From: Reinekea forsetii | GTDB taxonomy: Bacteria; Pseudomonadota; Gammaproteobacteria; Pseudomonadales; Natronospirillaceae | Length of the DNA: 64,000 bases | Reading direction: 5' to 3' | NCBI RefSeq assembly: GCF_002795845.1 | Contig: NZ_CP011797.1 | Coordinates: 1,139,501-1,203,500, forward strand | In this document: in pieces, positions 13,460 to 64,000 of the stretch | Layout of the letters: each line of letters starts with the position of its first letter | How positions within the stretch are numbered: the first letter of the stretch is position 1 | The notes under the pieces: generated by a model | The model's input: only the letters and a program-made list of their open reading frames with translations | Told to the model about the DNA's origin: nothing | Database searches by the model: none | Made by a program: the position numbers and the translations under genes

Positions 13460-13534
13460 TGGCTGGTCCGGCTGGATTCGAACCAGCGCATGACAGGATC
13501 AAAACCTGTTGCCTTACCGCTTGGCGACGGACCA
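13460..13534 (-). tRNA. tRNA-Gln (TTG), copy 2 in transcript order
   Basis: The 75-base cloverleaf includes an encoded CCA (TGG at 13460-13462 on the plus strand). The anticodon loop reads GGTTTTGATCC, giving anticodon TTG for Gln. Acceptor stem TGGTCCG pairs with CGGACCA. The sequence is identical to the neighbouring copy at 13580-13654, 45 bases away. Confidence 0.95.
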
Positions 13535-13579
13535 GTATAAATGTGTGCTAAAACTGCTAAACGAGCGTTACAGAAGAAC

Positions 13580-13654
13580 TGGCTGGTCCGGCTGGATTCG
13601 AACCAGCGCATGACAGGATCAAAACCTGTTGCCTTACCGCTTGGCGACGGACCA
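13580..13654 (-). tRNA. tRNA-Gln (TTG), copy 1 in transcript order
   Basis: This is a 75-base gene identical to the copy at 13460-13534, with encoded CCA and anticodon TTG. It is 4 bases from the 3' end of the tRNA-Met gene, so the three are one transcript. Confidence 0.95.
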
Positions 13655-13658
13655 GTAA

Positions 13659-13735
13659 TGGTGGCTATAGCTAGACTTGAACTAGCGACCCCAGCATTAT
13701 GAATGCTGTGCTCTAACCAACTGAGCTATATAGCC
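13659..13735 (-). tRNA. tRNA-Met (CAT), elongator type
   Basis: This 77-base gene has an encoded CCA (13659-13661). Anticodon CAT is at 13701-13699 on the minus strand. Acceptor GGCTATA pairs with TATAGCC, and the D-loop AGCTCAGTTGGTTAGAGC is standard. The fully paired 1-72 (G-C) pair and the lack of initiator-type GGG/CCC anticodon-stem pairs indicate an elongator rather than initiator tRNA. It is the first gene of the tRNA operon. Confidence 0.9.
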
Positions 13736-41275: not shown

Positions 41276-41901
41276 CGTAGAGTTAAATCGTTATTGAGCA
41301 GTCTGCGCAGGCGGCTGCGCATCCACGGCAACAGCAGCAGACCCATTAGAACACCGCAGGCCAGGCCACCCAGGTGGGCCGAGTTATCGATGGGCAGAAA
41401 TAGGCCTAGGCCCAAGTTGATCGCCAACACCGCGCCAATACTCTTCAGCCATTCCTTGCGCAGGTCCGGACGCACTATATTGCTCAGCAGCACCGCGACA
41501 AAAATACCAAATAGACCGAAGATGGCGCCAGAGGCACCGGCACTGATCACGCCTGGATTAAACAGATAGCTCGCGAAACTGCCCGCCAAACCGCATGCCA
41601 GATACACCAGCAGAAAAAGCGCTGACCCGAGGAGGGGCTCAATAAACCGGCCCAAGACAAACAGGGAGGCGCTGTTGAAGACCAAATGCATCAGGCCGAG
41701 ATGCAAAAATATGCTGCTGAAAAATCGCCACCACTCGCCCTGTACGACAAAATTGGAATAGTTAGCGCCCAGTGCCAGCAAGCTCTGCGCGGAAAACTGT
41801 GAAAAGTTGCCATTGAGCACCACCACTGCTAAAAACATTAGCAGGTTGAGGCTTAACAATACCGGGGTAACACGAAAACCTGTTCGAAACTTCAAAATCA
41901 T
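41272..41901 (-). CDS. rhomboid family intramembrane serine protease
   Basis: The product has 209 residues with six predicted helices. The catalytic Ser124 is in SAGASGAIFGLFG and the catalytic His176 in NSAHLGGLACG. The oxyanion-side H72-x3-N76 is in GLMHLVFNSAS, so the protease looks active. Rhomboids cleave single-pass membrane proteins within or near the membrane. The longest frame would start at 42129 but would overlap a divergent gene; ATG 41901 starts directly before the first helix and is preferred. The sequence resembles general bacterial rhomboids more than the rhombosortase subgroup. It is divergent from the small basic protein gene. Confidence 0.88.
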   Translation of the reverse strand: MILKFRTGFRVTPVLLSLNLLMFLAVVVLNGNFSQFSAQSLLALGANYSNFVVQGEWWRFFSSIFLHLGLMHLVFNSASLFVLGRFIEPLLGSALFLLVYLACGLAGSFASYLFNPGVISAGASGAIFGLFGIFVAVLLSNIVRPDLRKEWLKSIGAVLAINLGLGLFLPIDNSAHLGGLACGVLMGLLLLPWMRSRLRRLLNNDLTLR

Positions 41902-48030: not shown

Positions 48031-51000
48031 ATGGAACCTATTGCTGGCAAAAACTGTCTTCTATCTATCGATGTTATTGACTTAAGGCCCTGGATATTTC
48101 TCTTTGTCCTTTATTTCGTATTCGTATCAATAACGGTCGGGTCCAACCTTAATCCGATCCATCAGACTGGCCCATACCAAAACCATCCGGAAGCTATTTA
48201 CCCATCGGACCGAGACGTTCTAGGAGAAATAACTCTCCATCAAGAAGTACGCCACATTCTTGGGGTAGATTCAAACGTACAGTTTCGCAACATAACCCCC
48301 TCCTATACTTCACCAGATATTGTCCATTTGCAGCAGGTATTCGCCGGAGTGGACGTTTCCGCTGCAATCCTTGCTGTGCGCTTATCAGATGACGGTAAGG
48401 TGAGTCAGGTCTACGGCGAGGTTCTAGACGGGGTTGGCCAGGCACTAAAACGTCAAGCCAATCGACGCGACAGGTCCGCTGCCAAAGCCATATCACCCGC
48501 CAATAAATTAGCCTGGGTTGCTGATGCACAATGGCTTGCCAACCATGTTCTGCTCCCTCAAACCGATCAGGGCCAATGGACCATCAGCCAGCTCGTGCAA
48601 AGCCCTGCATTTGTGTCCATTGCAGGGCAGGTTAGGCGTGTTGAACGAGTTGAATTCTATGCTGAAAATATCAGTCAACAACGTTTTGTTCGACCGGCCC
48701 TTGATGTCGATCCGGATAGTCACATTATCCTGCAGCAACTGAATCGCCTGAACTATTCTGTGCAGGCCGGCAGCGGCCCAGGCGGTAACCTGATGACCGG
48801 GCCGCAGCAATACCCCTGGGTCGGTCAGGCCATCGATGCCCTCAGCGCCGGCACCTTTCTGGTCACCCGCAGCGGCACCGATTGCACCCTGGGTGTTGCG
48901 CCCGAAGACGGCTCCTGGCAAAACAACGTCCAGGTGCTGAACGGCACAGACGCCAGTGCCGCCTATCGCTACCCGTGCAACGAAAAAGGGCTCCATGAAG
49001 AGGATCTCTCGATCCCAACAGGCGCCTACTCACCGCTCAACGATGCCAGTTACAGCGCCCAAGTCGCCTTCAATCTGTACGCCAACTTTGCCATCACCCG
49101 AGCCAAGGGGCCGCTCAATGAGATCGGTCGACCTTTAATCGTCAAGGCTCGCTATGGCTATGTCGATAACGCTTTTTGGAATGGCGAGTTTATCGCGCTG
49201 GGCGACGGCGCACGCTATTTCTACCCCAAGGTTGCACCCGATACACTCGGCCATGAGCTGGCCCACGCGGTACTGGAACACTACAGCCTGCTGAGCCAGG
49301 GGGGCGGCACATCGATGGGCATCGCCGAGTCCTTTGCCGACATCGCTGGCGAAGCAACGGAATACGCCATAGCGCAGCAAAGCTTTCAGCAAAATGATTG
49401 GCGATATGCCGCCGCCACCTTCAAGCCCACCTTGGCAGACGCTGCGCGCTATTTTGAGCAACCGTCGCTCGATGGTAAGTCGATCGATACGCCCAAGGAT
49501 CGGCATTACCAGGTCACTGGCCATCATCTGGCAGGTCCCTTTAATCGCGCGTTTTTCCATCTGGTGACCGACAACGCAGCGCGTGGCTGGACGCCCTTGA
49601 TCGGCTTTGACCTCTGGCTGACCGCCGCCGCCAACTGTTGGGTGCCAATTATGCAGTACGAGAGTGCGGCCCAATGCATCGTGGACTCGGCGGCTACCTT
49701 TCGCGCCCACAACAGCGCATTACCGAGCGACTGGAACGCCGAGGCGATTCGTTACGCGGTGATCCGAGCCTTTGCAAGGGTCGATATTATGACCACCAGC
49801 GACACCGAGTTGGTAGCCCTGTTTGACTATAAGCGCGTGTTCGATGGATTGCTGTTGCGCAATACCAGTTCCGTCGGTACAAGCACCAGCCCGGTCTATG
49901 ACTGGGATCTGGGCGATGATGGCAGCATCGATCAGGTAACCCAGCGGCTAGTGGACACGGTCGATATCCTGCCCGCTGCGGGTGCTGACCGCCTCGTCGT
50001 TCGGCTTCGAGCTCAAGCGCCCAACCAGCAAGATGACTATCTGAGAGAAATTGATCTAGCACCAGACTACTGCATCCCAAGCGGGTCTGGCGATGGAGCC
50101 GATTACATTCGCCAAGTTAGCCTCAATGGTACGGCCATGGCGGTGTCGGAGACCGAGCCGGGCGGTTATGCCGACTATACCGCAGAGCCTCCCTTGACGC
50201 TGAACCTGGCAGGCGAAAACAGCATTATCCTTACCCCAAACGATGATCTCTATTTCCGCCGTTGGATGGTGTTTGCCGATCTAAACGGCGATCACGACTT
50301 CAGCGATCCGGGCGAGACACTACTCGAGACCCGAAGTCAGGGCGCGATTACGGGCGCCATCGATCTGACCGGTGGGAGCCCCGCCAATAAGGGCCAGACC
50401 ACCCGATTGCGCGTGCTGATGGATTGGGCCAGTGCTTCCCGGCCCTGCGGTCGAGCAAGCATGGGCGAGTATGAGGACTATCGTGTGACGCTGGTGACCC
50501 AGCCGGACCCTATGCCCGAGCCAATGGTCGCCTTTAGTTATGGCGTGGTAGCGGATAGCACCGTGGTGCAGTTTGAGAACCGCAGTGAGTCGGTACCGGC
50601 AGGGGCAACCTGGTCCTGGCAATATCGGCACCTGGATCAGGCCCGCTATACCGAATTTGCAGCGACCCACGGGGCTCGGTTCGATTTCGGCCAGGCCGGT
50701 GACTACAGCGTGTTACTGATGCTCACTTTAGCGGATGGCCGGGAAGTTCAAGCAGAACAGGCCATCAATGTACCGGAACCCCAACCCGATCCGGAACCCC
50801 AACCCGATCCGGAGCCCCAACCCGATCCGAAACCCCAACCCGATCCGGAGCCCCAACCCGATCCGAAACCCAAACCCCAACCCCAACCCGATCCGAAACC
50901 CCAACCCAATCCGGAACTGGAGTTTGATATAGAGGTAAGTCCTGGGTCGGCTGATGTGACCTTGATAAATCATTCCAATCACTATCTGGACAGCGCTCAG

Positions 51001-51279
51001 TGGGCATGGAACTACGGCGATGGCCAAATCAGTGAGATGAGCAGTTTTCAAGCGAGCCATCGTCATACTTATAATGTCGCCAGGTTGCCCAAAGATACAC
51101 AAGAAATAATCGTTACACTGTCTATTAGTCAGAACGGAACTCTCTACCAACAACAAAAAATACTCGATCGTAATCGGTTACCGAAAGTCGGCGCTGTAAT
51201 TTTCGCACTGCCGTTATGCCTCTGGCTGCTATTGCTGCGCATCGACTGGCATGTGCGCGGTTCGGAACGGCAGAGTTAG
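48031..51279 (+). CDS. secreted M4-type metallopeptidase with GEVED and PKD modules and C-terminal membrane anchor
   Basis: The product has 1082 residues. A signal-anchor-like segment (about 19-37) precedes a thermolysin-type FTP/PepSY propeptide (about 55-245). The M4 catalytic domain (about 250-590) has zinc motif H408-E409-LA-H412 in DTLGHELAHAVLEH and third ligand Glu433 in GIAESFADIAGE; VTGHHLAGPFNRAFFHL gives the late active-site His. Then come a PKD-like module (about 610-660), a GEVED domain ending GEYEDYRVTLV (about 680-825), a PKD (about 830-905), a Pro/Gln/Asp/Glu repeat linker, a second PKD-like module and a C-terminal hydrophobic helix followed by basic residues (VGAVIFALPLCLWLLLLRI). 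The core from base 48766 to 50711 is nearly identical to that of the next gene. It is probably cell-surface bound or released after processing. Confidence 0.85.
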   Translation: MEPIAGKNCLLSIDVIDLRPWIFLFVLYFVFVSITVGSNLNPIHQTGPYQNHPEAIYPSDRDVLGEITLHQEVRHILGVDSNVQFRNITPSYTSPDIVHLQQVFAGVDVSAAILAVRLSDDGKVSQVYGEVLDGVGQALKRQANRRDRSAAKAISPANKLAWVADAQWLANHVLLPQTDQGQWTISQLVQSPAFVSIAGQVRRVERVEFYAENISQQRFVRPALDVDPDSHIILQQLNRLNYSVQAGSGPGGNLMTGPQQYPWVGQAIDALSAGTFLVTRSGTDCTLGVAPEDGSWQNNVQVLNGTDASAAYRYPCNEKGLHEEDLSIPTGAYSPLNDASYSAQVAFNLYANFAITRAKGPLNEIGRPLIVKARYGYVDNAFWNGEFIALGDGARYFYPKVAPDTLGHELAHAVLEHYSLLSQGGGTSMGIAESFADIAGEATEYAIAQQSFQQNDWRYAAATFKPTLADAARYFEQPSLDGKSIDTPKDRHYQVTGHHLAGPFNRAFFHLVTDNAARGWTPLIGFDLWLTAAANCWVPIMQYESAAQCIVDSAATFRAHNSALPSDWNAEAIRYAVIRAFARVDIMTTSDTELVALFDYKRVFDGLLLRNTSSVGTSTSPVYDWDLGDDGSIDQVTQRLVDTVDILPAAGADRLVVRLRAQAPNQQDDYLREIDLAPDYCIPSGSGDGADYIRQVSLNGTAMAVSETEPGGYADYTAEPPLTLNLAGENSIILTPNDDLYFRRWMVFADLNGDHDFSDPGETLLETRSQGAITGAIDLTGGSPANKGQTTRLRVLMDWASASRPCGRASMGEYEDYRVTLVTQPDPMPEPMVAFSYGVVADSTVVQFENRSESVPAGATWSWQYRHLDQARYTEFAATHGARFDFGQAGDYSVLLMLTLADGREVQAEQAINVPEPQPDPEPQPDPEPQPDPKPQPDPEPQPDPKPKPQPQPDPKPQPNPELEFDIEVSPGSADVTLINHSNHYLDSAQWAWNYGDGQISEMSSFQASHRHTYNVARLPKDTQEIIVTLSISQNGTLYQQQKILDRNRLPKVGAVIFALPLCLWLLLLRIDWHVRGSERQS
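48766..50711 (+). repeat. duplicated ~1.95-kb metallopeptidase core, copy A
   Basis: This block and 52230-54178 are almost identical at the base level; the offset is 3464 at the left end and 3467 at the right end because of one extra codon in copy B. Differences are a divergent patch of about 15 codons (48960-49025) and scattered single substitutions, about ten of them amino acid changes. Similarity stops abruptly at both ends. Confidence 0.95.
50773..50920 (+). repeat. Pro-Glu/Lys-Pro-Gln-Pro-Asp coding repeat (18-bp unit)
   Basis: An 18-bp unit (CCGGAACCCCAACCCGAT and variants with AAA for GAA) is repeated about eight times with one irregular stretch, encoding a P-E/K-P-Q-P-D linker of about 50 residues between the last two PKD-like modules. 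It is absent from the sister gene. Such extended Pro-rich linkers typically span the cell-surface layer. Confidence 0.9.
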
Positions 51280-51536
51280 AATCATTGCTCGCCTGAATCG
51301 TAACCGTCCAGAGGATTCGGACAACCGAGTTAGTTCACCCGACAGCATGCAAGGATAGATAATGCGCCACCTAAGCCGTTACACCTGAACTGAAGTTTCG
51401 TATCGTTGTGATCGGTTAATGCCCTGGCCAATCGAGGTGGTTTGGCCATGGTTTAACGATCGATACAGGATTATTTGTGCGAATTTATATAAAAGTATTT
51501 AACTCATTCTGTATTACACATTGGATTGAGGTGCCC

Positions 51537-54500
51537 ATGTTATTACTTAAAAAAAATATTAAAAACACATACAAGTTTTGCAAACTCATCCCTTTAATGG
51601 GTCTGGTGTTAACCTCTGCGGCCACTTTTTCTGCGACCCCTCTCTCGAGGTTGTCACCAGTGGTCTCTGGCGAACAGGCCGGTAAAGAAACCTATGGAGA
51701 CGTATCATGGTCGGCCAGCAGCCTAGCCCAGCGGGTATCTGATTACCTCGGTGCAAGAGCCATGGTAAGTTTCCGTGATGTGACATCAGACGTTGTCGCG
51801 CCTGATTTTCGGCAGTTGCAACAGACCTATCAGGGTGTCGATGTGGCGGACTCGGTTGTTGCCGTTTATCTCGATAAGACCGGCAAAATTATTCGCCTGT
51901 ACGGGACCGTGTATGACGACTTGGATGCTGATTTGGCACTGCACAATCAGCATGCAGCCCAATGGGCTGAGGTGTCCGTGCCGTTTGAGCCGCACGACAT
52001 CGTAGAAAACTATTTGCAGAATTTAGCGGCAGAAGGCGACTGGGCGATTAGCCAATGGGCGCAACAATCGTTAATCAGCATTATTGCCGGCCAGGCGCGA
52101 CAGGTTTTCCGCCTATCCTTCTATGCAGAGCATCAGGACACAGGTAAATACCTAAGACCTCAGCTGCTGATCGATGCCTTCAGTGGCGAAATTTTAGCCG
52201 TGCAGGATAGCCTACATTATGGGTCCCAAGCCGGCAGCGGCCCAGGCGGTAACCTGATGACCGGGCCGCAGCAATACCCCTGGGTCGGTCAGGCCATCGA
52301 TGCCCTCAGCGCCGGCACCTTTCTGGTCACCCGCAGCGGCACCGATTGCACCCTGGGTATTGCGCCCGAAGACGGCTCCTGGCAGAACAACGTCCAGGTG
52401 CTGAACGGCACAGACGCCAGCACCGCCTTTCGGTATCCGTGCCCGGATGAACAGGCTCGACACGAGCAAGATCTCTCGAACCAGACTGGCGCCTACTCAC
52501 CGCTGAACGATGCCAGTTACAGCGCCCAAGTCGCCTTCAATCTGTACGCCAACTTTGCCATCACCCGAGCCAAGGGGCCGCTCAATGAGATCGGTCGACC
52601 TTTAATCGTCAAGGCTCGCTATGGCTATGTCGATAACGCTTTTTGGAATGGCGAGTTTATCGCGCTGGGCGACGGCGCACGCTATTTCTACCCCAAGGTT
52701 GCACCCGATACACTCGGCCATGAGCTGGCCCACGCGGTACTGGAACACTACAGCCTGCTGAGCCAGGGGGGCGGCACATCGATGGGCATCGCCGAGTCCT
52801 TTGCCGACATCGCTGGCGAAGCAACGGAATACGCCATAGCGCAGCAAAGCTTTCAGCAAAATGATTGGCGATATGCCGCCGCCACCTTCAAGCCCACCTT
52901 GGCAGACGCTGCGCGCTATTTTGAGCAACCGTCGCTCGATGGTAAGTCGATCGATACGCCCAAGGATCGGCATTACCAGGTCACTGGCCATCATCTGGCA
53001 GGTCCCTTTAATCGCGCGTTTTTCCATCTGGTGACCGACAACGCAGCGCGTGGCTGGACGCCCTTGATCGGCTTTGACCTCTGGCTGACCGCCGCTGCCA
53101 ACTGTTGGGTGCCAATTATGCAGTACGAGAGTGCGGCCCAATGCATCGTGGACTCGGCGGCTACCTTTCGCGCCCACAACAGCGCATTACCGAGCGACTG
53201 GAACGCCGAGGCGATTCGTTACGCGGTGATCCGAGCCTTTGCAAAGGTCGATATTATGACCACCAGCGACACCGAGTTGGTAGCCCTGTTTGACTATAAG
53301 CGTGTGTTCGATGGATTGCAGTTGCGCAATACCAGTTCCGTCGGTACAAGCACCAGCCCGGTCTATGACTGGGATCTGGGCGATGATGGCAGCATCGATC
53401 AGGTAACCCAGCGGCTAGCGGACACGGTCGATATCCTGCCCGCTGCGGGTGCTGACCGCCTCGTCGTTCGGCTTCGAGCCCAAGCGCCCAGCCAGCAAGA
53501 TGACTTTCTGAGAGAAATTGATCTAGCATCGGACTACTGCATCCCAAGCGGATCTGGCGATGGAGCCGATTACATTCGCCAAGTTAGCCTCAATGGTATG
53601 GCCATGGCGGCGTCGGAGACCGAGCCGGGCGGTTATGCCGACTATACCGCAGAGCCTCCCTTGACGCTGAACCTGGCAGGCGAAAACAGCATTATCCTTA
53701 CCCCAAACGATGATCTCTATTTCCGCCGTTGGATGGTGTTTGCCGATCTAAACGGCGATCACGACTTCAGCGATCCGGGCGAGACACTACTCGAGACCCG
53801 AAGTCAGGGCGCGATTACGGGCGCCATCGATCTGACCGGTGGGAGCCCCGCCAATAAGGGCCAGACCACCCGATTGCGCGTGCTGATGGATTGGGCCAGT
53901 GCTTCCCGGCCCTGCGGTCGAGCAAGCATGGGCGAGTATGAGGATTATCGTGTGACGCTGGTGACCCAGCCGGACCCTATGCCCGAGCCAATGGTCGCCT
54001 TTAGTTATGGCGTGGTAGCGGATAGCACCGTGGTGCAGTTTGAGAACCGCAGTGAGTCGGTACCGGCAGGGGCAACCTGGTCCTGGCAATATCGGCACCT
54101 GGATCAGGCCCGCTATACCGAATTTGCAGCGACCCACGGGGCTCGGTTCGATTTCGGCCAGGCCGGTGACTACAGCGTTCAACTTATATTGACCACGCCA
54201 TTAGGTTCAGAGTATCCGGTGCAAGAAAGAATCTCCCTTACAGCCGACGGTCCAGCAGACCACGACTACTGCGCTGCAGGCAGCGTCGTTGATGGTCTCT
54301 ATATCCGAAAAGTAGGTATTCATCATAAGGGTTTGTGGAACATATTGATCAATTCAAGCGCTGTCGGAGCCGAGCAAGGCTACACCCTTTACGGTAGTGA
54401 ACTGCTCAAGCAAGCCCTACCTCGAGGGGAAACGATATGGATCAGCGTTACCGCTGTAGGTTCCGCGACCAGCAGTAAAAAGATTGGTGCCTGGCTGGAC

Positions 54501-54725
54501 CTAAACCAAAACCATAGATTTGATATTGATGAAAATATCTATCTGACCGGCGGTAATAATCCTGCAACGACTTGGATTGAAGTTGCCCTGCCGGTCGATG
54601 CGCCGACCGGTCCGACGCGATTGCGGCTGATTGTCAAATCAGACGCCGTACCAGATGCCTGTGAATTGATAAGCCTCGATCAAGGCTCTGGCGAAGTTGA
54701 GGATTACATTGTGATCATCGAGTAA
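51537..54725 (+). CDS. secreted M4-type metallopeptidase with PKD and two GEVED modules (paralogue)
   Basis: The product has 1062 residues from ATG 51537, which begins a classic signal peptide (MLLLKKN..LIPLMGLVLTSAATFSA) and follows GAGGTG; a GTG at 51477 with AGGA upstream would add 20 residues before it. The propeptide (about 40-230) is FTP/PepSY-like but clearly different from the first gene. The M4 domain has H395-E-LA-H, the same Glu and late His motifs, and is nearly identical in sequence to the upstream paralogue, as are the PKD, GEVED and second PKD that follow. The C-terminus then diverges: instead of the Pro-rich linker and membrane helix it carries a second GEVED domain (AAGSVVDGLYIRKVG ... 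GSGEVEDYIVIIE). Without a membrane anchor it should be fully secreted. The gap between the two genes is 257 bases without clear terminator. Confidence 0.85.
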   Translation: MLLLKKNIKNTYKFCKLIPLMGLVLTSAATFSATPLSRLSPVVSGEQAGKETYGDVSWSASSLAQRVSDYLGARAMVSFRDVTSDVVAPDFRQLQQTYQGVDVADSVVAVYLDKTGKIIRLYGTVYDDLDADLALHNQHAAQWAEVSVPFEPHDIVENYLQNLAAEGDWAISQWAQQSLISIIAGQARQVFRLSFYAEHQDTGKYLRPQLLIDAFSGEILAVQDSLHYGSQAGSGPGGNLMTGPQQYPWVGQAIDALSAGTFLVTRSGTDCTLGIAPEDGSWQNNVQVLNGTDASTAFRYPCPDEQARHEQDLSNQTGAYSPLNDASYSAQVAFNLYANFAITRAKGPLNEIGRPLIVKARYGYVDNAFWNGEFIALGDGARYFYPKVAPDTLGHELAHAVLEHYSLLSQGGGTSMGIAESFADIAGEATEYAIAQQSFQQNDWRYAAATFKPTLADAARYFEQPSLDGKSIDTPKDRHYQVTGHHLAGPFNRAFFHLVTDNAARGWTPLIGFDLWLTAAANCWVPIMQYESAAQCIVDSAATFRAHNSALPSDWNAEAIRYAVIRAFAKVDIMTTSDTELVALFDYKRVFDGLQLRNTSSVGTSTSPVYDWDLGDDGSIDQVTQRLADTVDILPAAGADRLVVRLRAQAPSQQDDFLREIDLASDYCIPSGSGDGADYIRQVSLNGMAMAASETEPGGYADYTAEPPLTLNLAGENSIILTPNDDLYFRRWMVFADLNGDHDFSDPGETLLETRSQGAITGAIDLTGGSPANKGQTTRLRVLMDWASASRPCGRASMGEYEDYRVTLVTQPDPMPEPMVAFSYGVVADSTVVQFENRSESVPAGATWSWQYRHLDQARYTEFAATHGARFDFGQAGDYSVQLILTTPLGSEYPVQERISLTADGPADHDYCAAGSVVDGLYIRKVGIHHKGLWNILINSSAVGAEQGYTLYGSELLKQALPRGETIWISVTAVGSATSSKKIGAWLDLNQNHRFDIDENIYLTGGNNPATTWIEVALPVDAPTGPTRLRLIVKSDAVPDACELISLDQGSGEVEDYIVIIE
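52230..54178 (+). repeat. duplicated ~1.95-kb metallopeptidase core, copy B
   Basis: This is the partner of 48766-50711. It covers the catalytic domain, PKD, GEVED and second PKD. The divergent patch corresponds to PDEQARHEQDLSNQ here against NEKGLHEEDLSIP in copy A. The near-perfect match also at third codon positions points to recent duplication or gene conversion. Confidence 0.95.
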
Positions 54726-54809
54726 GAGGCAATCCACCCATCTAGGGGCTCAGGCTCATCGCCATGCACTGAGTCATAGATTTATCTGACTAACATGTGA
54801 GGAACAAAA

Positions 54810-56735
54810 ATGAACAGGAAACTCATAGCTGTAGCCATAATCACTAGCCTAGCAAGCTTGAGCTTGGTGAGCGCTGACATGAAGAACAGCAGGTCTTCGG
54901 CAGTGGTGGTATCGAAGAGCGCTGATAGCCGCGCCGATAAGCCGGAATACCCATCCAGCTCAGGCCAACACGGCTACCTGAACCCGGCCGACAGTGCAGA
55001 CTTTGCCACTATCATGGAACACCTAGGCTATGCACAGACCACGGCGGAGGCCTCACCGATGTTTTATCGGATGGTTGAACAGGCTCGAGCCGAAGCCCTG
55101 ATGCAACCTAGCCTCTATGTGTTGCAGGCCGGCCTGGCGCCAGAAGAGGAAGCCATGCACCATTCTGTTTTGATGCCGAAACGCTTCTTCAGTAGCATCA
55201 CCAATGAGGTTCGGCTGCTTAACAGTGCGACAGTAAATGTAACCGGCAATATTGCCTTCGCCTATACCACGGTGGTGCTCAAAGACCCGGCCGGACGACA
55301 GATCGGCGTGCCCGGATCACGGCGCGTTTATGCCGGCGAAGCCAATCGCTCTGTGGCGTTAGGGGATGTTGATTCAGCCTTTATACGCGATAACTACCAA
55401 CCCAGTGATCAGTTCAGTATAGAATCCTTTGCGATGACACAGGACAACAGCGGCAAGCGCCTGTTCCATAAGATGACCAACAGACTCTATGCGCGAGCAC
55501 TGATGAATGGCGACGGCCTTAGCAGCTATAATGGATTGCTCAAGATAGAAGCACCTGACCAAACACCAGAACATAAGGCCAGTCAGGCTCCCAATATCAA
55601 GGTCTGCCTCAACCGAGATCATGGCGATTGCGATATTCCTCAACTTTACGACGCCCAAACGCCTAATGCGCAACTGAAGATTAAGATACCCCTGAAAGGC
55701 GAAATTGAAACCTTTCATGAAATTACTCAAGTCTATGCACCGGGTGAGGGTGATGCCGCCATAACGGGCAATGAAACCGGAGCTTGGATAATGGCGGGTA
55801 ATGCCGGTGCCAATGGTGAATGGGCGAGCATGCGCAACCCACGTGATGCACGTAGTTTTTTTGACTACATTGAGATTCGTCACTTTGTCGATGTCGAGGG
55901 CTTCGTTGGTACTAGGTTGACCTGGGATATACCGATGGAAGATGCGGTCTTCGGTGTAGGTGCGGCAACGGCGGGCACCATGTTCAAACGTTTTGAGAAT
56001 GTGCAGTGGGAAATACGGATTAAGGTGAAGTCCCAAGACACCATTGACATGGATGGTGATATAGCCACAACGGACGATCGTTTCAGCCCCTTTACCGATG
56101 AATATGGTAACCCCGAGACGATTGAAACCGTATTCGTTGCCGAAAATGCTGACCTCGCCAGCAATCACACCGATTGGGTCTTAGCGGAGAAGCTGCCCTA
56201 TCTCTATTTCGAATACAGTTGTGTTGCTAAGGGCACTCTGATCACCCTGCCAGCCGGTGCGGTCAAACCCATTGAAGAGCTCATCATAGGAGACTTGGTC
56301 GCTGGCAAGGGTGGCCTTATGAGAGTTATGGATACCTCTATTGGATATGAAGCCCTGCCCATGATCGAGATCCGAGATGATCAAGGTCATAGGCTGCTAT
56401 TAACCGAGACACACCCAGTGGTGACCACGAATCGCGGTGTTGTGTGGGCGCAGGAAGTGCAACCCGGCGATCGCTTGTCTACTGACTTAGGTACCACCAC
56501 CGTGCTGTCGGTTGGCAAGGAGTTGTTCAACGATACGGTTCATAACCTAGAACTTGAGCCAATACTGGGTGAGGATGACGCCCATGAAGTCATGTTTGCC
56601 AATGGCATCGCTATCGGTGATCTGGGCTACCAGTCGGCCCTTAGCTTTAAAGATAAGGCGCCTACAACGGTAGAAGGCGTTCTGCTCTCGCTGCCGATAG
56701 AGTGGCATGAAGATTACCTAAACTCTTTAAAATAG
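54810..56735 (+). CDS. secreted protein with C-terminal Hint (hedgehog/intein-type) autoprocessing domain
   Basis: The product has 641 residues. The signal peptide is KLIAVAIITSLASLSLVSA (about 1-22). Residues about 60-465 are a unique secreted region I do not recognise, with a VDVEGFVGTRLTWDIPM core and a Cys pair (CLNRDHGDC). From Cys471 (EYSCVAKGTLITLPAG) starts a Hint domain: KPIEELIIGDLVAG, block-B TxxH as T532-E-T-H535 (TETHPVVTT), WAQEVQPGDRLS, and FANGIAIGD at 596-604. Inteins and pretoxin-Hint domains end in His-Asn at this last position; here Gly-Asp replaces it, so C-terminal Asn cyclisation should not occur. N-S acyl shift at Cys471 followed by hydrolysis or transfer to a nucleophile, as in hedgehog, would cut off or attach the N-terminal part. 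About 37 residues follow the domain. AGGA precedes the start. Confidence 0.75.
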   Translation: MNRKLIAVAIITSLASLSLVSADMKNSRSSAVVVSKSADSRADKPEYPSSSGQHGYLNPADSADFATIMEHLGYAQTTAEASPMFYRMVEQARAEALMQPSLYVLQAGLAPEEEAMHHSVLMPKRFFSSITNEVRLLNSATVNVTGNIAFAYTTVVLKDPAGRQIGVPGSRRVYAGEANRSVALGDVDSAFIRDNYQPSDQFSIESFAMTQDNSGKRLFHKMTNRLYARALMNGDGLSSYNGLLKIEAPDQTPEHKASQAPNIKVCLNRDHGDCDIPQLYDAQTPNAQLKIKIPLKGEIETFHEITQVYAPGEGDAAITGNETGAWIMAGNAGANGEWASMRNPRDARSFFDYIEIRHFVDVEGFVGTRLTWDIPMEDAVFGVGAATAGTMFKRFENVQWEIRIKVKSQDTIDMDGDIATTDDRFSPFTDEYGNPETIETVFVAENADLASNHTDWVLAEKLPYLYFEYSCVAKGTLITLPAGAVKPIEELIIGDLVAGKGGLMRVMDTSIGYEALPMIEIRDDQGHRLLLTETHPVVTTNRGVVWAQEVQPGDRLSTDLGTTTVLSVGKELFNDTVHNLELEPILGEDDAHEVMFANGIAIGDLGYQSALSFKDKAPTTVEGVLLSLPIEWHEDYLNSLK

Positions 56736-56877
56736 CCGTTGTGGGTCGGCAGTTGTTTCTGCTGGCCCTAATTCGCCGCCTTTCCTAACATTTAGCGAAG
56801 CAGTCAGCCCGCTGTTTGGGCTATCGATGTGTTAACGGTTATTGAAAAATTTTGGCGGCTTCATACAGGAAGCTCCC

Positions 56878-58137
56878 ATGATCAAAATACTAAATAACGT
56901 CATTGTTATAACAAGAAACATGATCTATTGCCTCTATCCGATATTGGCTGCAGGTTTTCTCTCGACACCTCTGTGGGCAACTGAAATTCTCGGCATTGAA
57001 AATGATAATATTCAGATGGGTACTGCATACCATAGTGACAAACTGGGTTTTTATGGTTTTCAAGCGGTCAACGGCATGATCGACGATAGTTACGGCAATA
57101 CCGAAAGTGAAATATCTTACTCGGTTGATTTGGGTTACCAGCAGTTACTGAACATGGTCAGTGGCAGTCTCGATGCATCCGTTCAGTTATCTGCTGTCAG
57201 TGTAGATGCCGGCGGCCTTTACGCGTCGAACAATGCCGCCGACAAGTACACCGGAACTTACACCATCTATATTAATTTGAAACCGAAAAAGAGGCGGTTG
57301 ATTCCAAATACCGAGCACGGCTTTGCACCTACTCTTGCCGCAGTGCAGTTAGCCAATGCCTATCCCGGTAGCCGGGGTGAAGAGCTGGGCGATGAGTTTG
57401 TAACGGCTATCGAGTATGGTTCTTACCTTATCGTAAATATGAAAGTAGAGTATCGCAATGCCGAGGATAAACGAATAATTGGTGGCTACCTATCGGTAGA
57501 TGTCAATGGCCTGGTGAGTGTCAGAGGTGATCTGTCGCTAATCGATGAGGAGGTTAAGCGATCGGTGAAAATCTCCATTTCGGCCATGCAGGTTGGTGGT
57601 AATCCAATGGAGTTGGCCGATATCATTCCAGAGGGCCTGATGCAGTGTAGCCTAAACAATCCGACACCGTGCTTCAGTCTTTTTTCCGAAACAGTGCGCT
57701 ATCTAAAGTCGGCCTATATCCATCAATTTCAAACGCTCGATAACTATAATCCGGTCAAGTTGTTTACTGCCCGCTATGATCAATCAGGCCCAAACCTGTC
57801 TATTCTCACCCCGCCGACGGGCTATGATGATGTCAGCTATCTAACGAAATTAACGGTTAATCGTCTTAGTAACGATTGGATGACTGCCATGTTGGATAAG
57901 CGCAGGGCAGAAAATATAGTTAATTATTATGGCGCATATCTCACCAGCGAAGAAAAAAATGAAATTAATGAGTTGGCCTCACAGGCCCGGTCGAATGCAT
58001 ATCTCTTTGCGGAATCCGTTGAGTACTGCAATAGAAATCCTCTTGGTAACTTTTGTCGACAGCGAAATCAAGATATTCGCCAGGGAGGCTACCTCTATGT
58101 TTACGATGCCAGCCTGCTCGATCTCGAATCATTATAA
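56878..58137 (+). CDS. secreted MACPF/CDC-like protein, paralogue 1
   Basis: The product has 419 residues. A long signal sequence ends near STPLWA (residue 34). The mature part shows a pattern like the membrane-attack-complex/perforin and cholesterol-dependent cytolysin superfamily: GTAYHSDKLGFYGFQAVNG at the start, ELGDEFVTAIEYGSYLIVNMKVEY in the middle, then SVKISISAMQVGGNPMELADII. It is clearly homologous to the product at 59021 and more distantly to that at 60600. The three share a C-x7-C (CSLNNPTPC) and a C-terminal C-x8-C (CNRNPLGNFC), probably disulfides. ATG 56878 follows AGGAAG (56867-56872); the TTG at 56842 is rejected. A pore-forming role is inferred from fold-like motifs only. 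It is close to, and co-oriented with, the GEVED gene 23 bases downstream. Confidence 0.55.
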   Translation: MIKILNNVIVITRNMIYCLYPILAAGFLSTPLWATEILGIENDNIQMGTAYHSDKLGFYGFQAVNGMIDDSYGNTESEISYSVDLGYQQLLNMVSGSLDASVQLSAVSVDAGGLYASNNAADKYTGTYTIYINLKPKKRRLIPNTEHGFAPTLAAVQLANAYPGSRGEELGDEFVTAIEYGSYLIVNMKVEYRNAEDKRIIGGYLSVDVNGLVSVRGDLSLIDEEVKRSVKISISAMQVGGNPMELADIIPEGLMQCSLNNPTPCFSLFSETVRYLKSAYIHQFQTLDNYNPVKLFTARYDQSGPNLSILTPPTGYDDVSYLTKLTVNRLSNDWMTAMLDKRRAENIVNYYGAYLTSEEKNEINELASQARSNAYLFAESVEYCNRNPLGNFCRQRNQDIRQGGYLYVYDASLLDLESL

Positions 58138-58160
58138 ATAGCTAATAAGGAAATGGATTA

Positions 58161-59006
58161 ATGATTAAAAAAATAATTTCATTGATAGTCAGCTGCCTGG
58201 TGCTGGTGCTCGGCAACGCAGCCTATGGGTCTGAATACCCAAACTACGGAATTTGGAATGATCAACTAACGCCCACAGAGGCATTAGGTCGTTTTCAGTG
58301 GCTTGAAAAATGTTATAACGGTTTGCTCATCGAGACATGGGAGCGAATGTATGGTGCAACGATCCCGCGCAGTCAAGCAGAGAAGATATCCGACCTAAAA
58401 AACCATTGGTTGTACACACAAAATGGTTTACGAGCTGATGCCCAGTACCCAACATTTGGTGACTTTAAGCATGAAAACCCAAGTCAGTGGCAGGCTGGTC
58501 TGTCATCGCAGCAAGGATGTAAGACTATACCCCAAGGCTACAGCATGATTGGCTTGTTAACCTCTATTGACATCAGAACCTATTGTCCAATCAGTTCAAA
58601 TGGTTCTCGCAATCTATCGATAAAAAGTGTCCGCTTGGGGGGGTATACCAATTCCAGTGGTGCAACCAATTATTCGAAGTTTTCCGGACATATAATGCCG
58701 GTTAATCGGGGTGATACGTTACGCCTAGTCTTAACCGAGGCGCAGTTTCATCCGCGTCTAAAAGGTACATGGCATGCATTTGTCGACTGGAATCGTAACG
58801 GTATTTTAAACGATTCGGATGAAATGGTAATCAGTAATATTGTTGCCGAGGCCGATGAGGTTTCGATTAATCTTGTCATTCCGCAGGATGCCGACACCGG
58901 CTATACCCGACTGCGGGTGACCGACGATTATGCCGGAGGCAGCGACAATCCGTGTGTAAATATTCGATATGGTGAAGTTGAAGACCATACCTTAAAAATT
59001 AATTAG
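58161..59006 (+). CDS. small secreted GEVED-domain protein
   Basis: This 281-residue protein has a signal peptide (KKIISLIVSCLVLVLGNAAYG). Residues about 24-130 are unrecognised, Trp/Tyr-rich and helical looking. Residues about 137-280 form a GEVED domain: TYCPISSNGSRNLSIKSVRLGG at the start, HAFVDWNRNGILNDSDEM in the middle, TGYTRLRVTDDYAGG, and RYGEVEDHTLKIN at the end with the family's name motif. GEVED domains are beta-sandwich modules in secreted bacterial proteases and adhesins and may bind calcium and substrate. The same module occurs in both metallopeptidases and in the large minus-strand protein. AAGGAAA precedes the ATG. The gene is nested between two MACPF-like paralogues, 14 bases before the second. 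Confidence 0.8.
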   Translation: MIKKIISLIVSCLVLVLGNAAYGSEYPNYGIWNDQLTPTEALGRFQWLEKCYNGLLIETWERMYGATIPRSQAEKISDLKNHWLYTQNGLRADAQYPTFGDFKHENPSQWQAGLSSQQGCKTIPQGYSMIGLLTSIDIRTYCPISSNGSRNLSIKSVRLGGYTNSSGATNYSKFSGHIMPVNRGDTLRLVLTEAQFHPRLKGTWHAFVDWNRNGILNDSDEMVISNIVAEADEVSINLVIPQDADTGYTRLRVTDDYAGGSDNPCVNIRYGEVEDHTLKIN

Positions 59007-59020
59007 TCGGGGTGACCAAG

Positions 59021-60502
59021 ATGAATAGAAAAATCGGATCCCGTTTTATGCTAATAGGTTTTGCTACAGTCTTCAGTCTGACCGCTGCGGCTGTGAACCA
59101 GGATAAGACGCCCTCAGCACTGCAATCCCAATCCCTTGATAACTTTAGTTCGACCATTCCCGGTCTGGTAAATGACCACGTACTCATTGGTACCGCCTAT
59201 AATAGTTCAACACACGAGTTCCTTAACCATCAGCCGGTAAAGGGCCTTGTGAGTGAGCAATATGGCGGTGTGCAATTTGACTTTCGTTATGATACCGATA
59301 CCAGCTACGATGAGATACTCAGTGCCCTAAACGGGAGTGTGGATCTATCGGTTAATATCAGTGCTGTGCAGGTAAACGCTGGCGCTCATATTGCGAAGGA
59401 GTCTGCGGAGTCGGAGTATGCCAGTTCATACACCTTTACTGCTGGGGCCACCCCTAAGAAGAAGGTGTTTCTGCCCATCGACGCGAACTTGGGGTTTAGC
59501 TTGAGCCCTGTGGGTGAAATCATTGCCAATGACTATCAAGGGCGGTTGATGGAGTTAGCCGGTGATGAGTTTGTCACCTCAATCGAGTATGGCGCGCAGC
59601 TCTTTGTGAATATGCACGTAGAATATTTAAATAGCCAAGACAAGCGTGAAATCGGTGGCTACCTTGGCGTTGATATAGCCGGTGGGATAGTGAATGTCCA
59701 AGGAGAGTTAGATTTTCTCGATGATCAAAGCAAGGAGTCGGTGAAAATAACCGTCAGGGCGATTCAAAAGGGGGGAGAGCCTACCCGTTTACTTACTATT
59801 ATTCCGAATAATATAGTGACCTGCTCCTTAAGCTACCCACAACCCTGTTTTGATCTGTTCAGTCAAGCGATTCAATATGCGAAAAATGATTTTCGTTATC
59901 AATTCAATCAGTTATCTGACTATAACGTGGTTAGCTACAAAACGACTCGCTACGATCGATCTACCGCCGATGTAAAACGCTTAGCCCCAGCGTACCAAAC
60001 TATTAGCTTCGCAAGGAATCAACTCCTATTCGAACTGACGGATAGGTATAAGAAAGCCTTGATGGACGAGCAGCGTGCCGCCGACATTCTCTCAACCTAT
60101 TACAGTTGGATTCCAGAAAGCGAGCGTTCAGACGTGGTGCAACTCCGGACGGTTGCTTACAATAACGCCTGGCTATTCTTTGATGCGGCGGAATACTGCC
60201 AAACGCATCCCTATGGGAATTTATGTGTTGACTATTGGAATAATATCGACTCGATTTGTAGGTCGACCGGAGAGGGCTGCGTGATTTCCTATGATCGCTC
60301 AATGTTGGATATTCCGACCACTGCACGCAAGGTTGAGCAGTGCGAACGGGCTCGGCAACAAGCTACCAATGCTGGGTTTGTTACCGAACCCTTGTCCTTG
60401 GCTTATCGGAAACTGCGCTGGGCTCCTGTCTTCATGACGGATCTGTCAGATGGAATCTTCGAGTGGACCCCTTGCGAATTTGCCTTAACCACCTATGAAT
60501 AG
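59021..60502 (+). CDS. secreted MACPF/CDC-like protein, paralogue 2
   Basis: This 493-residue protein is homologous along most of its length to the product at 56878: IGTAYNSSTHEFLNHQPVKGL, ISAVQVNAGAHI, AGDEFVTSIEYGAQLFVNMHVEYLN, SVKITVRAIQKGGEPTRLL, C-x7-C (CSLSYPQPC) and C-x8-C (CQTHPYGNLC). The C-terminal ~75 residues after the last pair are an extension not present in paralogue 1, with three more Cys and an aromatic end (LRWAPVFMTDL). ATG 59021 with GGGGTG upstream gives a good signal peptide (FMLIGFATVFSLTAAAV); GTG 59012 is an alternative. The gene ends before a terminator-like hairpin at 60545-60576. The GDEF inside the protein is not a diguanylate cyclase motif. Fold assignment to MACPF/CDC is tentative. 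Confidence 0.55.
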   Translation: MNRKIGSRFMLIGFATVFSLTAAAVNQDKTPSALQSQSLDNFSSTIPGLVNDHVLIGTAYNSSTHEFLNHQPVKGLVSEQYGGVQFDFRYDTDTSYDEILSALNGSVDLSVNISAVQVNAGAHIAKESAESEYASSYTFTAGATPKKKVFLPIDANLGFSLSPVGEIIANDYQGRLMELAGDEFVTSIEYGAQLFVNMHVEYLNSQDKREIGGYLGVDIAGGIVNVQGELDFLDDQSKESVKITVRAIQKGGEPTRLLTIIPNNIVTCSLSYPQPCFDLFSQAIQYAKNDFRYQFNQLSDYNVVSYKTTRYDRSTADVKRLAPAYQTISFARNQLLFELTDRYKKALMDEQRAADILSTYYSWIPESERSDVVQLRTVAYNNAWLFFDAAEYCQTHPYGNLCVDYWNNIDSICRSTGEGCVISYDRSMLDIPTTARKVEQCERARQQATNAGFVTEPLSLAYRKLRWAPVFMTDLSDGIFEWTPCEFALTTYE

Positions 60503-60544
60503 CGCGTAGGATGCTCATCGAACTATTGGCTAACTTTAAACAAT

Positions 60545-60576
60545 AAAAAAGACCATCGCGACTGGTGAGTCTTTTT
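60545..60576 (+). terminator. terminator after MACPF-like paralogue 2
   Basis: AAAAAGACCA (60546-60555) pairs with TGGT and GTCTTTTT (60563-60576, two-base GA bulge) and ends in five Ts. It separates paralogue 3 from the 56878-60502 gene set. Confidence 0.7.
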
Positions 60577-60599
60577 ATATCGGCCTAATGAGAGATACT

Positions 60600-61757
60600 A
60601 TGATCATTCAACGATTTACACTCTTATTTATGTTGGCATTTGCATGCCTAAGCCATTCAATGGTGCAGGCCGGTCTTTACTCGGGTGTTAACCTCAATGC
60701 AAATCAACTTGGACGGGGTTTTGACAGTCAGCTGTCTGCCCTGCGCAATCATTGTGTAATGGGGGAAATCGTAACTTGGAATAATACCGAGGCCGATATC
60801 AGTTATGCCGGCCTGAAGTCCCACGAGCGGTATCTTGAGGAAACCTATGGGCGAGTAAAGGGCGGTGTAAATCTTGTTCTGTTCGCTGGATCGGTTAGTG
60901 CATCATTGAGCACAAGGGTCACTGAAAATTCAAGGACCTCTGCGTCAAGCATCAAACTGCTCTACCATGCCACGGATCGGTCGATCGAAAACAGAAAGCT
61001 GTCTCCCTATGGTGCCGCAGTATTGACTCAAGATGAGATCGCAATTGATGAGCTCTGTGGGAGTGAATTCATTCACCATCTTAAGTTAGGGTTGGAAATT
61101 TCAGTTACCACCAAACTCCATTTTCGTTCTATTGAAGATTATCAAAGATGGGTGACCAAGGTTAAGGTAAGATTTTTATTTTATTCAAAGACAAAAACCA
61201 AAACCAAGGAGTGGCTCGAGCTAACGGAAAACGCCGTATACAGTATTGAAATCAATGCCAAAGGGGGGATGACTGATCGACTGCAGGCCATTTTGGATGA
61301 AAATACAATCTTCTGCGTCACGAGCAATATAGATGCCTGTATCGATACGACCTCACGGTTGTTTGAGTATCTTTTCAGCGAAATGGGCTATATCGTCGAT
61401 ATTAGGGATGCACCGAAGCAAGTGATTTCGTTTAGTACAACGCCCTATTTGATCTCCGGCCACCTCGAATTGGCGCTGCCGCCTAATGCTGAAGTTAATC
61501 AATATCGATTCCAGGATGAGCGCATTAGGACTCGATTGTACGCCAACCAACAAATGAAAGAGGCGCTCTATGCATTTGCTCAGGTTGAGGCCGACGAGGC
61601 CATACGAGTTGAGTTATTAGCAAGAGTTTCATTAATCGAAGAGAATATAGAACTGCTTGATCAGGCCGCGGCCCTGTGCCGTACCTCAACAGACTGGTTG
61701 ATTTGCGAGCGAGCAGTAGATGAGGCCTTATATGGGCAAACTAAAATTGAGTATTGA
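60600..61757 (+). CDS. secreted MACPF/CDC-like protein, divergent paralogue 3
   Basis: This 385-residue protein has a signal peptide (FTLLFMLAFACLSHSMVQA). It starts its mature part with YSGVNLNANQLGRGFDSQLS, where LGRGFD resembles the first conserved strand of MACPF-like proteins. Then come LCGSEFIHHLKLGLEISVTTKLHF at the position of GDEFV in the other two, and a C-x7-C (CVTSNIDAC) and C-x8-C (CRTSTDWLIC) at matching places. Overall similarity to the paralogues is low but these landmarks occur in the same order. A basic stretch TKTKTKEW near residue 200 may mark a membrane-inserting hairpin. The start may be ATG 60588 or 60600; the second has GAGAG before it and starts the signal peptide. 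It is transcribed separately, after a terminator. Confidence 0.5.
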   Translation: MIIQRFTLLFMLAFACLSHSMVQAGLYSGVNLNANQLGRGFDSQLSALRNHCVMGEIVTWNNTEADISYAGLKSHERYLEETYGRVKGGVNLVLFAGSVSASLSTRVTENSRTSASSIKLLYHATDRSIENRKLSPYGAAVLTQDEIAIDELCGSEFIHHLKLGLEISVTTKLHFRSIEDYQRWVTKVKVRFLFYSKTKTKTKEWLELTENAVYSIEINAKGGMTDRLQAILDENTIFCVTSNIDACIDTTSRLFEYLFSEMGYIVDIRDAPKQVISFSTTPYLISGHLELALPPNAEVNQYRFQDERIRTRLYANQQMKEALYAFAQVEADEAIRVELLARVSLIEENIELLDQAAALCRTSTDWLICERAVDEALYGQTKIEY

Positions 61758-61840
61758 TTGATTGATCTATCGTTAAACAGCCCTCTGGTATCCATGTTGA
61801 TTCCAGAGGATCCATTGTTAGTGGTTTGACGACTGTAAAA

Positions 61841-61901
61841 GCGCCGCTATTAGGTCACGCAAAATTTTTGCAGCCTATTAAGTCACCTGATAATAGCGCC
61901 G
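61841..61901. repeat. imperfect inverted repeat around the 3' end of the GlyGly-CTERM gene
   Basis: GCGCCGCTATTAGGTCAC (61841-61858) and the plus-strand GTCACCTGATAATAGCGCCG (61882-61901) are imperfect inverted copies. The right arm lies inside the last codons of the minus-strand gene, its TAA lies just inside the loop, and a GCAAAATTTTTGC mini-palindrome sits at 61859-61871. A second stem, CCTCTGG 61782-61788 with CCAGAGG 61803-61809, follows the convergent gene. They probably act as transcription ends of the two convergent genes. Confidence 0.5.
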
Positions 61902-64000
61902 ACATCCCAGCAGGGCTAGCAACCAGAGCATTCGCAGCGGATTAAACGAACCACCCTTTCTGCTAGTCGGTTTGGAAATACTAACGTCCCGGCTAAGGCT
62001 TTTGCCGCCTGGGAGTAAAGCGTTACTAATCGTCAGGCTGACCCTGAAGCTGCCGGCATCACCATAGGTGTGCTCGACGAGCAGTTCGTTGGCGGTGCTG
62101 GAGTTGTCGTCGCCAAAGTCCCAGTCAAAGGTTGAGCCTGCCGGATACTGGCTGGGGTTGCCGTCGACCCGAATGGTTTTGCCAGACAAGGTATAGTCAA
62201 ATCTGACTACCGTCGGTTCCGGAATAACAACCCACTGCTGCCAGTTACCCAGGCGGTAGCCTTCGCTGCTGAAGACGTCGAGTGCGATCTGGTAGCGGCC
62301 GGGCACACTGTACTGGTGCACCGGATTCGATTCGTTCGAACTTTGGCCATCGCCAAATTGCCATTGCCATGTTGCGATCTCGCTGTGCTCGATTGGCAGG
62401 GGCGTGAAGGCGATTTCATTGCCCTGTTGTTCCACTGCCACGCTTAGGTTGTATGGTTTTACCAAGTCCACCAGATAGTCTTCGATTTCGCCATAACTGC
62501 CAAAATACTGATAATCGGAGCATGGGTCGAGTTGTTCAAGGTCACCGCCGTTGGCGTACAACTGCAGAATACGCATGCGGGTTCGGGTTACCGCTTGGTC
62601 CAGTTTATGGGCCGGTAGGCTGATAGTGCCCGCCACGTAGCCCTGGCCATAATGCAGGCCATCCTCGGTGTAGCTGAAATCCCAGTGTGTGGCTAAACGT
62701 TCGCTCTTATCCTGAAACCAATAGCCATCACCAAACAACTTATCCTGATTGAGATCCATCCAGAGGTGATAGTGTTCTGCGTATTTGACTCCGTCGGGGT
62801 TGAGATAGCCGGCCGTCAGGACAAAGTTATGTTGCTCAGAACTGTACAAGACAATGGGGTTGCCGGGATTGACTAGGCCACCTTCTTGGCCGTTGGTGAA
62901 ACGTTGGTTATGAATGGAAAATTCCTCAATATACTCTTCGGTCACATTACTAACCGGTAGGCAGTAGTCATCTACTGGGTCTGGGAAAAGGTGTAGGGTT
63001 TGTTGCACACTTTGTTCAACCCAGGACCAACCGCTTGCATTGGATTGTCGAAACCCTATGGTCAGCGTTGCCGGGTACTCGCCAGGGCTTAAGAACGTCT
63101 TGCTGGTGGTCTGGTTTAAGCCCGTCCCGTCTGAACGTATCCTGCCTTGCTCGGCAAAGTTCCAGGTGACAGACCAGAGTCCAAAACTCTTGTTTTTGGG
63201 ATCGACGGTAGTATTGGTAAAATTCACCGTTACTGAGCCGTCTGGCCGGAACTCTTTCTGGTAGCTGAATGCAGGCTTGATCTTGGCTAAGCCAGTGGTG
63301 CCTACACTTACTTGCTGAATAACCGTTAAACCGCCGGGATAATCGGCGTTGGTTAGGGTCAGGCTGATATCATATTGCCCACTCGCGGCATAAGAATGGA
63401 CCGCCGATTCTGCGTTGGCCGTGGCGCCATCATCAAAATGCCAGAGCAGTTGTGTGCCGATGGGGTAGCGCAGCATGCTGGCCGAGACGGTAACCGTTAA
63501 AGCGCTAATGTCATCAATTACGATAGTCGCTTGGGTATGGTTGCGGACCGGCACCGTCGAATCCCAGCGGGCCACTTCTGCGTCGTCGACGTCATAGGCG
63601 GTTAGGGACACGGAGTAGTCTCCACTCCGGGCATAGGGATGGTAAGGGGATGGCTCGCTCGACTGCGTGCCATCGCCAAATTCCCAGTGCCAACGAGTTA
63701 CCCTGCTATCGTGGGTGTCATTGCGGAATTCTACGGCGTTTTCCTGAACCAGTGTTGTGATAACAAAGTTAAGCTCCGAATCGCTCCAGCGGATGCTGTA
63801 GTCCTCAATTTCGGCGGAGTTGTAGGTACCACAGGGCAATTTGTCGGAGTTGAGGCTAGACACGAGTAGACGCACTCGGTAGGTTTTGTTGAGCTCACCG
63901 ATGTATTGGATCACACCGCTCACCTTGCCGTCTGTGCTGTAATGAGACATAAGCCTTTCAGTGTACTGAAACTCGCCATCGTCGTTTATATCGAGCCACA
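61878..64000 (-). CDS. large secreted PKD/GEVED-domain protein with GlyGly-CTERM-like tail, N-terminus outside window
   Basis: The frame is open to the window edge; the ATG at 63950 is internal, because upstream codons read WLDINDDGEFQYTERL, part of a GEVED domain. About 707 residues are visible. In order they are a GEVED remnant ending AEIEDYSIRW, two PKD domains (WHWEFGDGTQSSEPSP, LLWHFDDGATANAES), a PKD-like module (SVTWNFAEQGRI), a second GEVED (DYCLPVSNVTEEYIEEF ... YGEIEDYLVDLV), and two more PKD domains (WQWQFGDGQSSNES, FDWDFGDDNSSTANE). The C-terminus has the GlyGly-CTERM shape: SRKGGSFNP, a hydrophobic helix (LRMLWLLALLGC) and RR. Rhombosortase-type sorting would process this tail. 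The catalytic part, if any, lies upstream; the domain style suggests a secreted peptidase like the two M4 enzymes. It is convergent with the third MACPF-like gene. Confidence 0.8.
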   Translation of the reverse strand, partial: WLDINDDGEFQYTERLMSHYSTDGKVSGVIQYIGELNKTYRVRLLVSSLNSDKLPCGTYNSAEIEDYSIRWSDSELNFVITTLVQENAVEFRNDTHDSRVTRWHWEFGDGTQSSEPSPYHPYARSGDYSVSLTAYDVDDAEVARWDSTVPVRNHTQATIVIDDISALTVTVSASMLRYPIGTQLLWHFDDGATANAESAVHSYAASGQYDISLTLTNADYPGGLTVIQQVSVGTTGLAKIKPAFSYQKEFRPDGSVTVNFTNTTVDPKNKSFGLWSVTWNFAEQGRIRSDGTGLNQTTSKTFLSPGEYPATLTIGFRQSNASGWSWVEQSVQQTLHLFPDPVDDYCLPVSNVTEEYIEEFSIHNQRFTNGQEGGLVNPGNPIVLYSSEQHNFVLTAGYLNPDGVKYAEHYHLWMDLNQDKLFGDGYWFQDKSERLATHWDFSYTEDGLHYGQGYVAGTISLPAHKLDQAVTRTRMRILQLYANGGDLEQLDPCSDYQYFGSYGEIEDYLVDLVKPYNLSVAVEQQGNEIAFTPLPIEHSEIATWQWQFGDGQSSNESNPVHQYSVPGRYQIALDVFSSEGYRLGNWQQWVVIPEPTVVRFDYTLSGKTIRVDGNPSQYPAGSTFDWDFGDDNSSTANELLVEHTYGDAGSFRVSLTISNALLPGGKSLSRDVSISKPTSRKGGSFNPLRMLWLLALLGCRRYYQVT

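Follow-up and report, generated by a model that had tools for sequence, protein, structure and literature searches.

A conserved six-gene set of Reinekea forsetii with MACPF/CDC-like paralogues, a Hint protein, and an M4 protease: a candidate secreted pore-forming system

Do the genes at the end of the analyzed stretch of Reinekea forsetii DNA form one system, and what might it do? The stretch, referred to as the window, comprises 64,000 nucleotides (contig positions 1139501–1203500) of a single-contig genome of 3.66 Mb; coordinates below are window positions, unless given with a locus identifier. From position 48,031 the list of open reading frames (ORFs) has seven ORFs on the + strand, followed by a convergent one crossing the window end (Table 1), just where an earlier note on this DNA had located them. 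That note proposed an exported unit of eight genes. The unit conserved across genera consists of six: one protease, a Hint protein, three MACPF/CDC-like paralogues (A, B, and C), and G, a small exported protein with a GEVED domain; the eighth gene, P, is convergent and lies outside the set. With a probability of about 0.58, the six-gene set is a secreted multi-component, protease-activated pore-forming system resembling the CDCLs of Bacteroidota, with Hint and GEVED proteins added, and it is probably an undescribed secreted weapon.

Scanning of genome contigs with an A/B profile yielded 17 loci, those of six marine genera plus L037, which is labelled as an uncultured Saccharospirillaceae, and homologues of the protease, Hint, A, G, B, and C occur together in all 17. 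In R. forsetii the six genes follow each other in this order, head to tail; protease and Hint are swapped in L037, and in L024 the contig ends within the protease gene. P. xiamenensis (L004) has the identical gene order, with B annotated as two adjoining coding sequences (L004 12004–13508), which may reflect a frameshift, a sequencing error, or a real split. Among named organisms, Reinekea sp. G2M2-21 and R. blandensis MED297 have the closest relatives of B, at 76% and 74%, respectively. Because these loci had been chosen by A/B, four separate profiles were run over 145 relatives. Only G000, G001, G005, and G090 have full-length Hint (>750 bits) and G (>390 bits) together with two A/B genes scoring at least 590 bits, and C above 500 bits in the same four genomes plus G054; the survey overlaps with the 17 loci, R. 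blandensis and Reinekea sp. G2M2-21 apparently being in both. The set is present in three of the seven examined genomes of the source genus. Co-occurrence in relatives, which the earlier note had put forward as a check, is strong, with a few exceptions.

These exceptions speak against a strictly fixed set. G054 has C adjoining a 176-amino-acid ORF with a protease propeptide domain, and G118 has a lone, partial Hint protein (269 bits). A tandem MACPF-like trio without Hint, GEVED, or protease, possibly a minimal trio, is seen in the same-family genome G019 (L041 7480–11740); exonuclease/endonuclease/phosphatase-family genes flank it on both sides. Distant MACPF-like relatives occur in G008, G027, G074, and at a second place in G090; the Hint domain alone is matched in G008, G054, G120, and at second places in G090 and G118; and for G, 14 genomes have a match limited to its GEVED end. 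A class-wide draw of 369 genomes gave A/B matches in seven and Hint matches in seven, own genome included, the full-length match being the own one only.

We compared distances and trees of the Hint, A, G, B, and C proteins from the window and the 17 loci. The protein distances of every pair correlate at 0.96–0.99, as vertical descent alone would also yield. In all five gene comparisons, L037 has Shewanella as its nearest relative. Since Reinekea belongs to Saccharospirillaceae, as L037 is labelled, transfer of the set between lineages is the simplest reading, a mislabelled contig being the alternative; with the five trees in agreement, the six genes apparently travel as one block. Different genera have different flanks, which, together with the presence in three of seven genomes, fits accessory status, as the earlier note had supposed. 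Its A+T-richer border at 47.6 kb is only partly a border: the G+C fraction is 0.446–0.477 across 57–62 kb, but large parts of the protease genes are near 0.58.

Beyond the six genes, comparison of flanks reveals nothing recognisable common to the genera except LysR-type regulators, and no immunity gene was recognised at the loci examined. In L037 and four Shewanella loci, C is followed by a PKD-like ORF of 187–227 amino acids, which may be an additional component of that branch; two Pseudoalteromonas loci have an M4-like gene 3' of C. A Pseudoalteromonas piscicida record contains a B homologue, and P. piscicida is reported to prey on vibrios (PMC11858312).

The three paralogues of the earlier note stand: A and B are 37% identical, the A/B profile aligns with C at an hhalign probability of 98.8, and by these sequence comparisons A, B, and C share common ancestry. 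No Pfam family is matched at E ≤ 1 by A, B, or C of the window, and neither MACPF (PF01823) nor thiol-cytolysin (PF01289) at E ≤ 1 by the 34 A/B rows or the 17 C rows; one distant relative matches PF01823 with E 0.0026, under the cut-off. For divergent MACPF/CDC members, a Pfam match is an aid, not a definition. The predicted structure of B gave 23 Foldseek matches with E ≤ 0.001, its core matching MACPF/CDC proteins; the best 50 rows, judged by title or background knowledge, are MACPF, CDC, CDCL, perforin, complement, or allied pore proteins, with a CDCL short component at the top (E 2.4e-6). Strands of the model at 79–95, 137–154, 186–205, and 244–253, with inserts at 97–136 and 206–243, fit the order beta1–insert–beta2–beta3–insert–beta4–GG, strand roles being assigned from this order, and a long helical C-terminal part is also present. 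The structural check proposed earlier thus has a positive outcome for B, which is predicted to have the MACPF/CDC fold (a central bent sheet with two membrane-insertion segments); for A and C, the MACPF-like fold proposed by the earlier note is suggested through homology to B.

The GG after beta4 is seen in all 34 A/B sequences, YGR in none, and YG[AS] in 28. Of the 17 C sequences, five (L037 and four from Shewanella) have YGR at the corresponding alignment position, four of them with YF upstream; the first G of the GG pair is kept in all 17 and both in 12. C also contains a lysine/threonine-rich segment. Distant A/B relatives with LRR, TPR, or Ig-like (ASH) repeats (L006 5929–7824, L048 1276–3132, L047 487–3879) are hosted by an Acidobacteriota plasmid and by genomes of the same class as the source, and the MACPF-like fold seems to be reused with different binding parts. 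In another distant relative (L050 1144–2781), a thioester domain is matched under the cut-off (TED_2, E 0.003).

The Hint protein comprises an export signal (export calls here are by eye, from N-terminal hydrophobic stretches), a conserved N-terminal beta-rich part, a Hint domain at approximately 469–609, and a conserved helical tail. The domain, reported in the earlier note, is under the Pfam and NCBIfam cut-offs and clear by predicted fold. Cys471, Thr532, and His535 (Cys and TxxH) are kept in 17/17 homologues; fold and residues are those of self-cleaving (Hedgehog/BIL-like) Hint domains, and cleavage is predicted. Splicing inteins terminate in His-Asn, with Cys, Ser, or Thr as the next residue. 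This end is absent from the homologues, position 603 being G in all 17 and 604 being D in 15 and G in two, with the domain end taken from the aligned ranges of the fold matches; this does not fit a splicing intein. HN[CST], counted over whole sequences regardless of position, is present in 2 of 17.

The zinc peptidases also stand. M4 and GEVED are above the Pfam cut-off in both + strand proteases, M4a and M4b. M4a has an FTP propeptide slightly under cut-off, GEVED, PKD above cut-off, a proline-rich linker, and a C-terminal hydrophobic tail; M4b has FTP, M4, PKD below cut-off, and two GEVED, one of them C-terminal. HExxH and the downstream glutamate ligand (HELAH408/ESFAD433 in M4a, HELAH415/ESFAD440 in M4b) identify both, by sequence, as M4 (thermolysin) peptidases. 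M4a 48763–50711 and M4b 52227–54178 align over 1,952 columns with 98% DNA identity, the gene ends differing, which on this evidence is a recent duplication or gene conversion; among the 17 loci, a second copy beside the module is seen only in the Reinekea locus L021. HExxH is found in the Hint-adjacent protease of 16 of 17 loci (L024 being cut), and M4 is above the Pfam cut-off in all five module proteases tested (L022, L023, L027, L037, and L004); the pattern used for the downstream glutamate motif gave no match in L027, L031, L035, L036, and L037.

P, at its full 1,425 amino acids including sequence beyond the window, is a third M4 protease, with PKD and GEVED above the Pfam cut-off. GEVED/PKD modules, claimed by the earlier note to tie together all eight proteins, are present in four (Pfam). 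One of these is G, with a module-specific N-terminal half and a C-terminal GEVED. G and the protease may have a surface-binding role, since in fibrillar adhesins, where GEVED was defined, it adjoins ligand-binding domains (PMC10952558). By eye, P ends with a GlyGly-CTERM-like tail (61878–61990, –) and M4a with a hydrophobic tail with basic residues (51180–51279); neither tail has an NCBIfam match to GlyGly-CTERM. A rhombosortase is found at cut-off in the source genome (84.1 vs 84 bits), and the window contains an under-cut-off match to the same model (50 of 84 bits) at 41407–41748 (–), probably another rhomboid-type protease. A tRNA cluster (Gln-Gln-Met, 13460–13735, –) is distant from the module.

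Table 1. Genes of the R. forsetii locus (window positions) and PKD-like ORFs of related loci (locus positions)
Feature	Position	Strand	Basis or remark
M4a, thermolysin-like protease	48031..51279	+	Pfam; HELAH, ESFAD motifs
M4b, protease of conserved module	51477..54725	+	Pfam, motifs; homologue adjoins Hint in related loci
Hint protein	54810..56735	+	Fold prediction, conserved residues
A, MACPF/CDC-like paralogue, 431 aa	56842..58137	+	Fold by homology to B
G, small exported protein with GEVED	58161..59006	+	Pfam
B, MACPF/CDC-like paralogue, 496 aa	59012..60502	+	Predicted structure
C, divergent MACPF/CDC-like paralogue, 389 aa	60588..61757	+	Fold by homology to B
P, C-terminal 706 aa of convergent M4/GEVED/PKD protease	61878..64000	–	Outside conserved six
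PKD-like ORF after C	L027 12905-13555; L031 12843-13403; L035 12438-13070; L036 12928-13611; L037 12874-13551		L031 cut by contig end

We infer function and target, how the proteins are exported, activated, and assembled, the chemistry of Hint, and a killing purpose along the following lines. A, B, and C would be exported by Sec and then probably by type II secretion (the secretin GspD is above cut-off in the source genome), activated either by the thermolysin-like protease encoded alongside them or at the surface of a bacterial or eukaryotic target, and would together form a mixed beta-barrel pore. Hint would self-cleave via a thioester, between Ser470 and Cys471, releasing or attaching its N-terminal domain, while G and the GEVED-ended protease would serve as accessory surface-binding parts. 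A far-reaching version of this scheme, which we regard as a long shot, is a bacterial complement-like cascade, mobile as a set among marine Gammaproteobacteria: the thioester made by Hint itself would covalently tag the target surface (cf. C3b/C4b), the M4 protease would act as convertase, A/B/C as a mixed membrane-attack-type pore, and G as docking subunit.

The pore-forming reading has to be weighed against the possibility that the MACPF-like proteins no longer form pores and instead join the Hint, GEVED, and PKD proteins in an adhesive or extracellular structure that matures by proteolysis. The adhesin context of GEVED (PMC10952558), the PKD repeats close by, the GlyGly-CTERM-like tails, and the lack of a recognised immunity gene would suit such an assembly; the invariant GG of A/B and the YGR kept in some C, however, fit retained pore mechanics, as do amphipathic segments in the insert regions. 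These segments occur elsewhere too, and because the signal is not confined to the inserts, pore formation is weighed slightly lower; all in all, a surface or matrix assembly seems doubtful, if worth keeping in view.

Alternatively, only A, B, and C would act together as the pore former, Hint having no chemical role and the protease being nutritional. The trio of G019, standing without Hint or protease, and the absent splicing end of Hint point this way, but the Hint Cys, Thr, and His are invariant, Hint and protease adjoin the trio in every one of the 17 loci, and the Hint tree agrees with the trio (the protease was outside the tree comparison), so we find this improbable. That exported degradative genes merely came to lie side by side, with no joint function, could be argued from the several secreted proteases within this stretch; given that six genes are shared by six genera and one uncultured lineage, with different flanks and agreeing trees, we give it hardly any credence. 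If the pore-forming reading is true, the MACPF/CDC superfamily gains a branch missed by sequence profiles, one in which a self-processing Hint protein and a protease are fixed companions; if the module kills, it is a multi-protein weapon common to marine bacteria. Whether the chemistry of Hint can arm or place a pore would also become a testable question.

Among known systems, M4 proteases with GEVED/PKD have the same M4, GEVED, and PKD domains and HExxH, whereas the Reinekea-type protease is genetically fixed beside Hint and MACPF-like genes. Hedgehog/BIL-type Hint proteins differ in their N-domain, and the His-Asn end is replaced here by Gly-Asp or Gly-Gly. The combination of MACPF-like, Hint, and GEVED/M4 proteins was not found among the titles and abstract openings listed by literature searches, several of which covered just the top of many matches, with most subscription journals outside this scope. 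Bacteroidales secreted antimicrobial proteins (BSAPs) and other bacterial MACPF proteins have the MACPF fold, and BSAPs act as single proteins; the Reinekea module consists of three divergent proteins with no MACPF Pfam match, B having its long helical C-terminal part. Besides the fold, the likeness lies in BSAPs being exported pore-formers of Gram-negative producers (PMC12853789).

The closest comparison, drawn from PMC11169675, PMC7527733, and PMC11952106, is with CDCLs. In Bacteroidota, CDCL genes form pairs or triplets; proteolysis was required by both pairs that were assayed, and the CDCLs of Bacteroides are lethal to related bacteria (PMC11169675); the Reinekea module likewise has adjacent paralogous MACPF/CDC-fold genes and a co-encoded protease. 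The CDCL motif is F/Y-F/Y-Xn-YGR with a downstream GG pair (PMC7527733), and here YGR is seen in 5/17 C along with the GG pair, the best Foldseek row of B being a CDCL short component. In contrast to CDCLs, the module has no PF01289 match and no YGR in A/B, co-encodes Hint, GEVED, and M4 genes, is hosted by Gammaproteobacteria, and shows no lipoprotein signals obvious by eye and no recognised immunity gene. The module is a possible member of the CDCL family; the motif traces, the gene arrangement, and the proteolysis known from CDCLs suggest that the module plausibly works like a CDCL.

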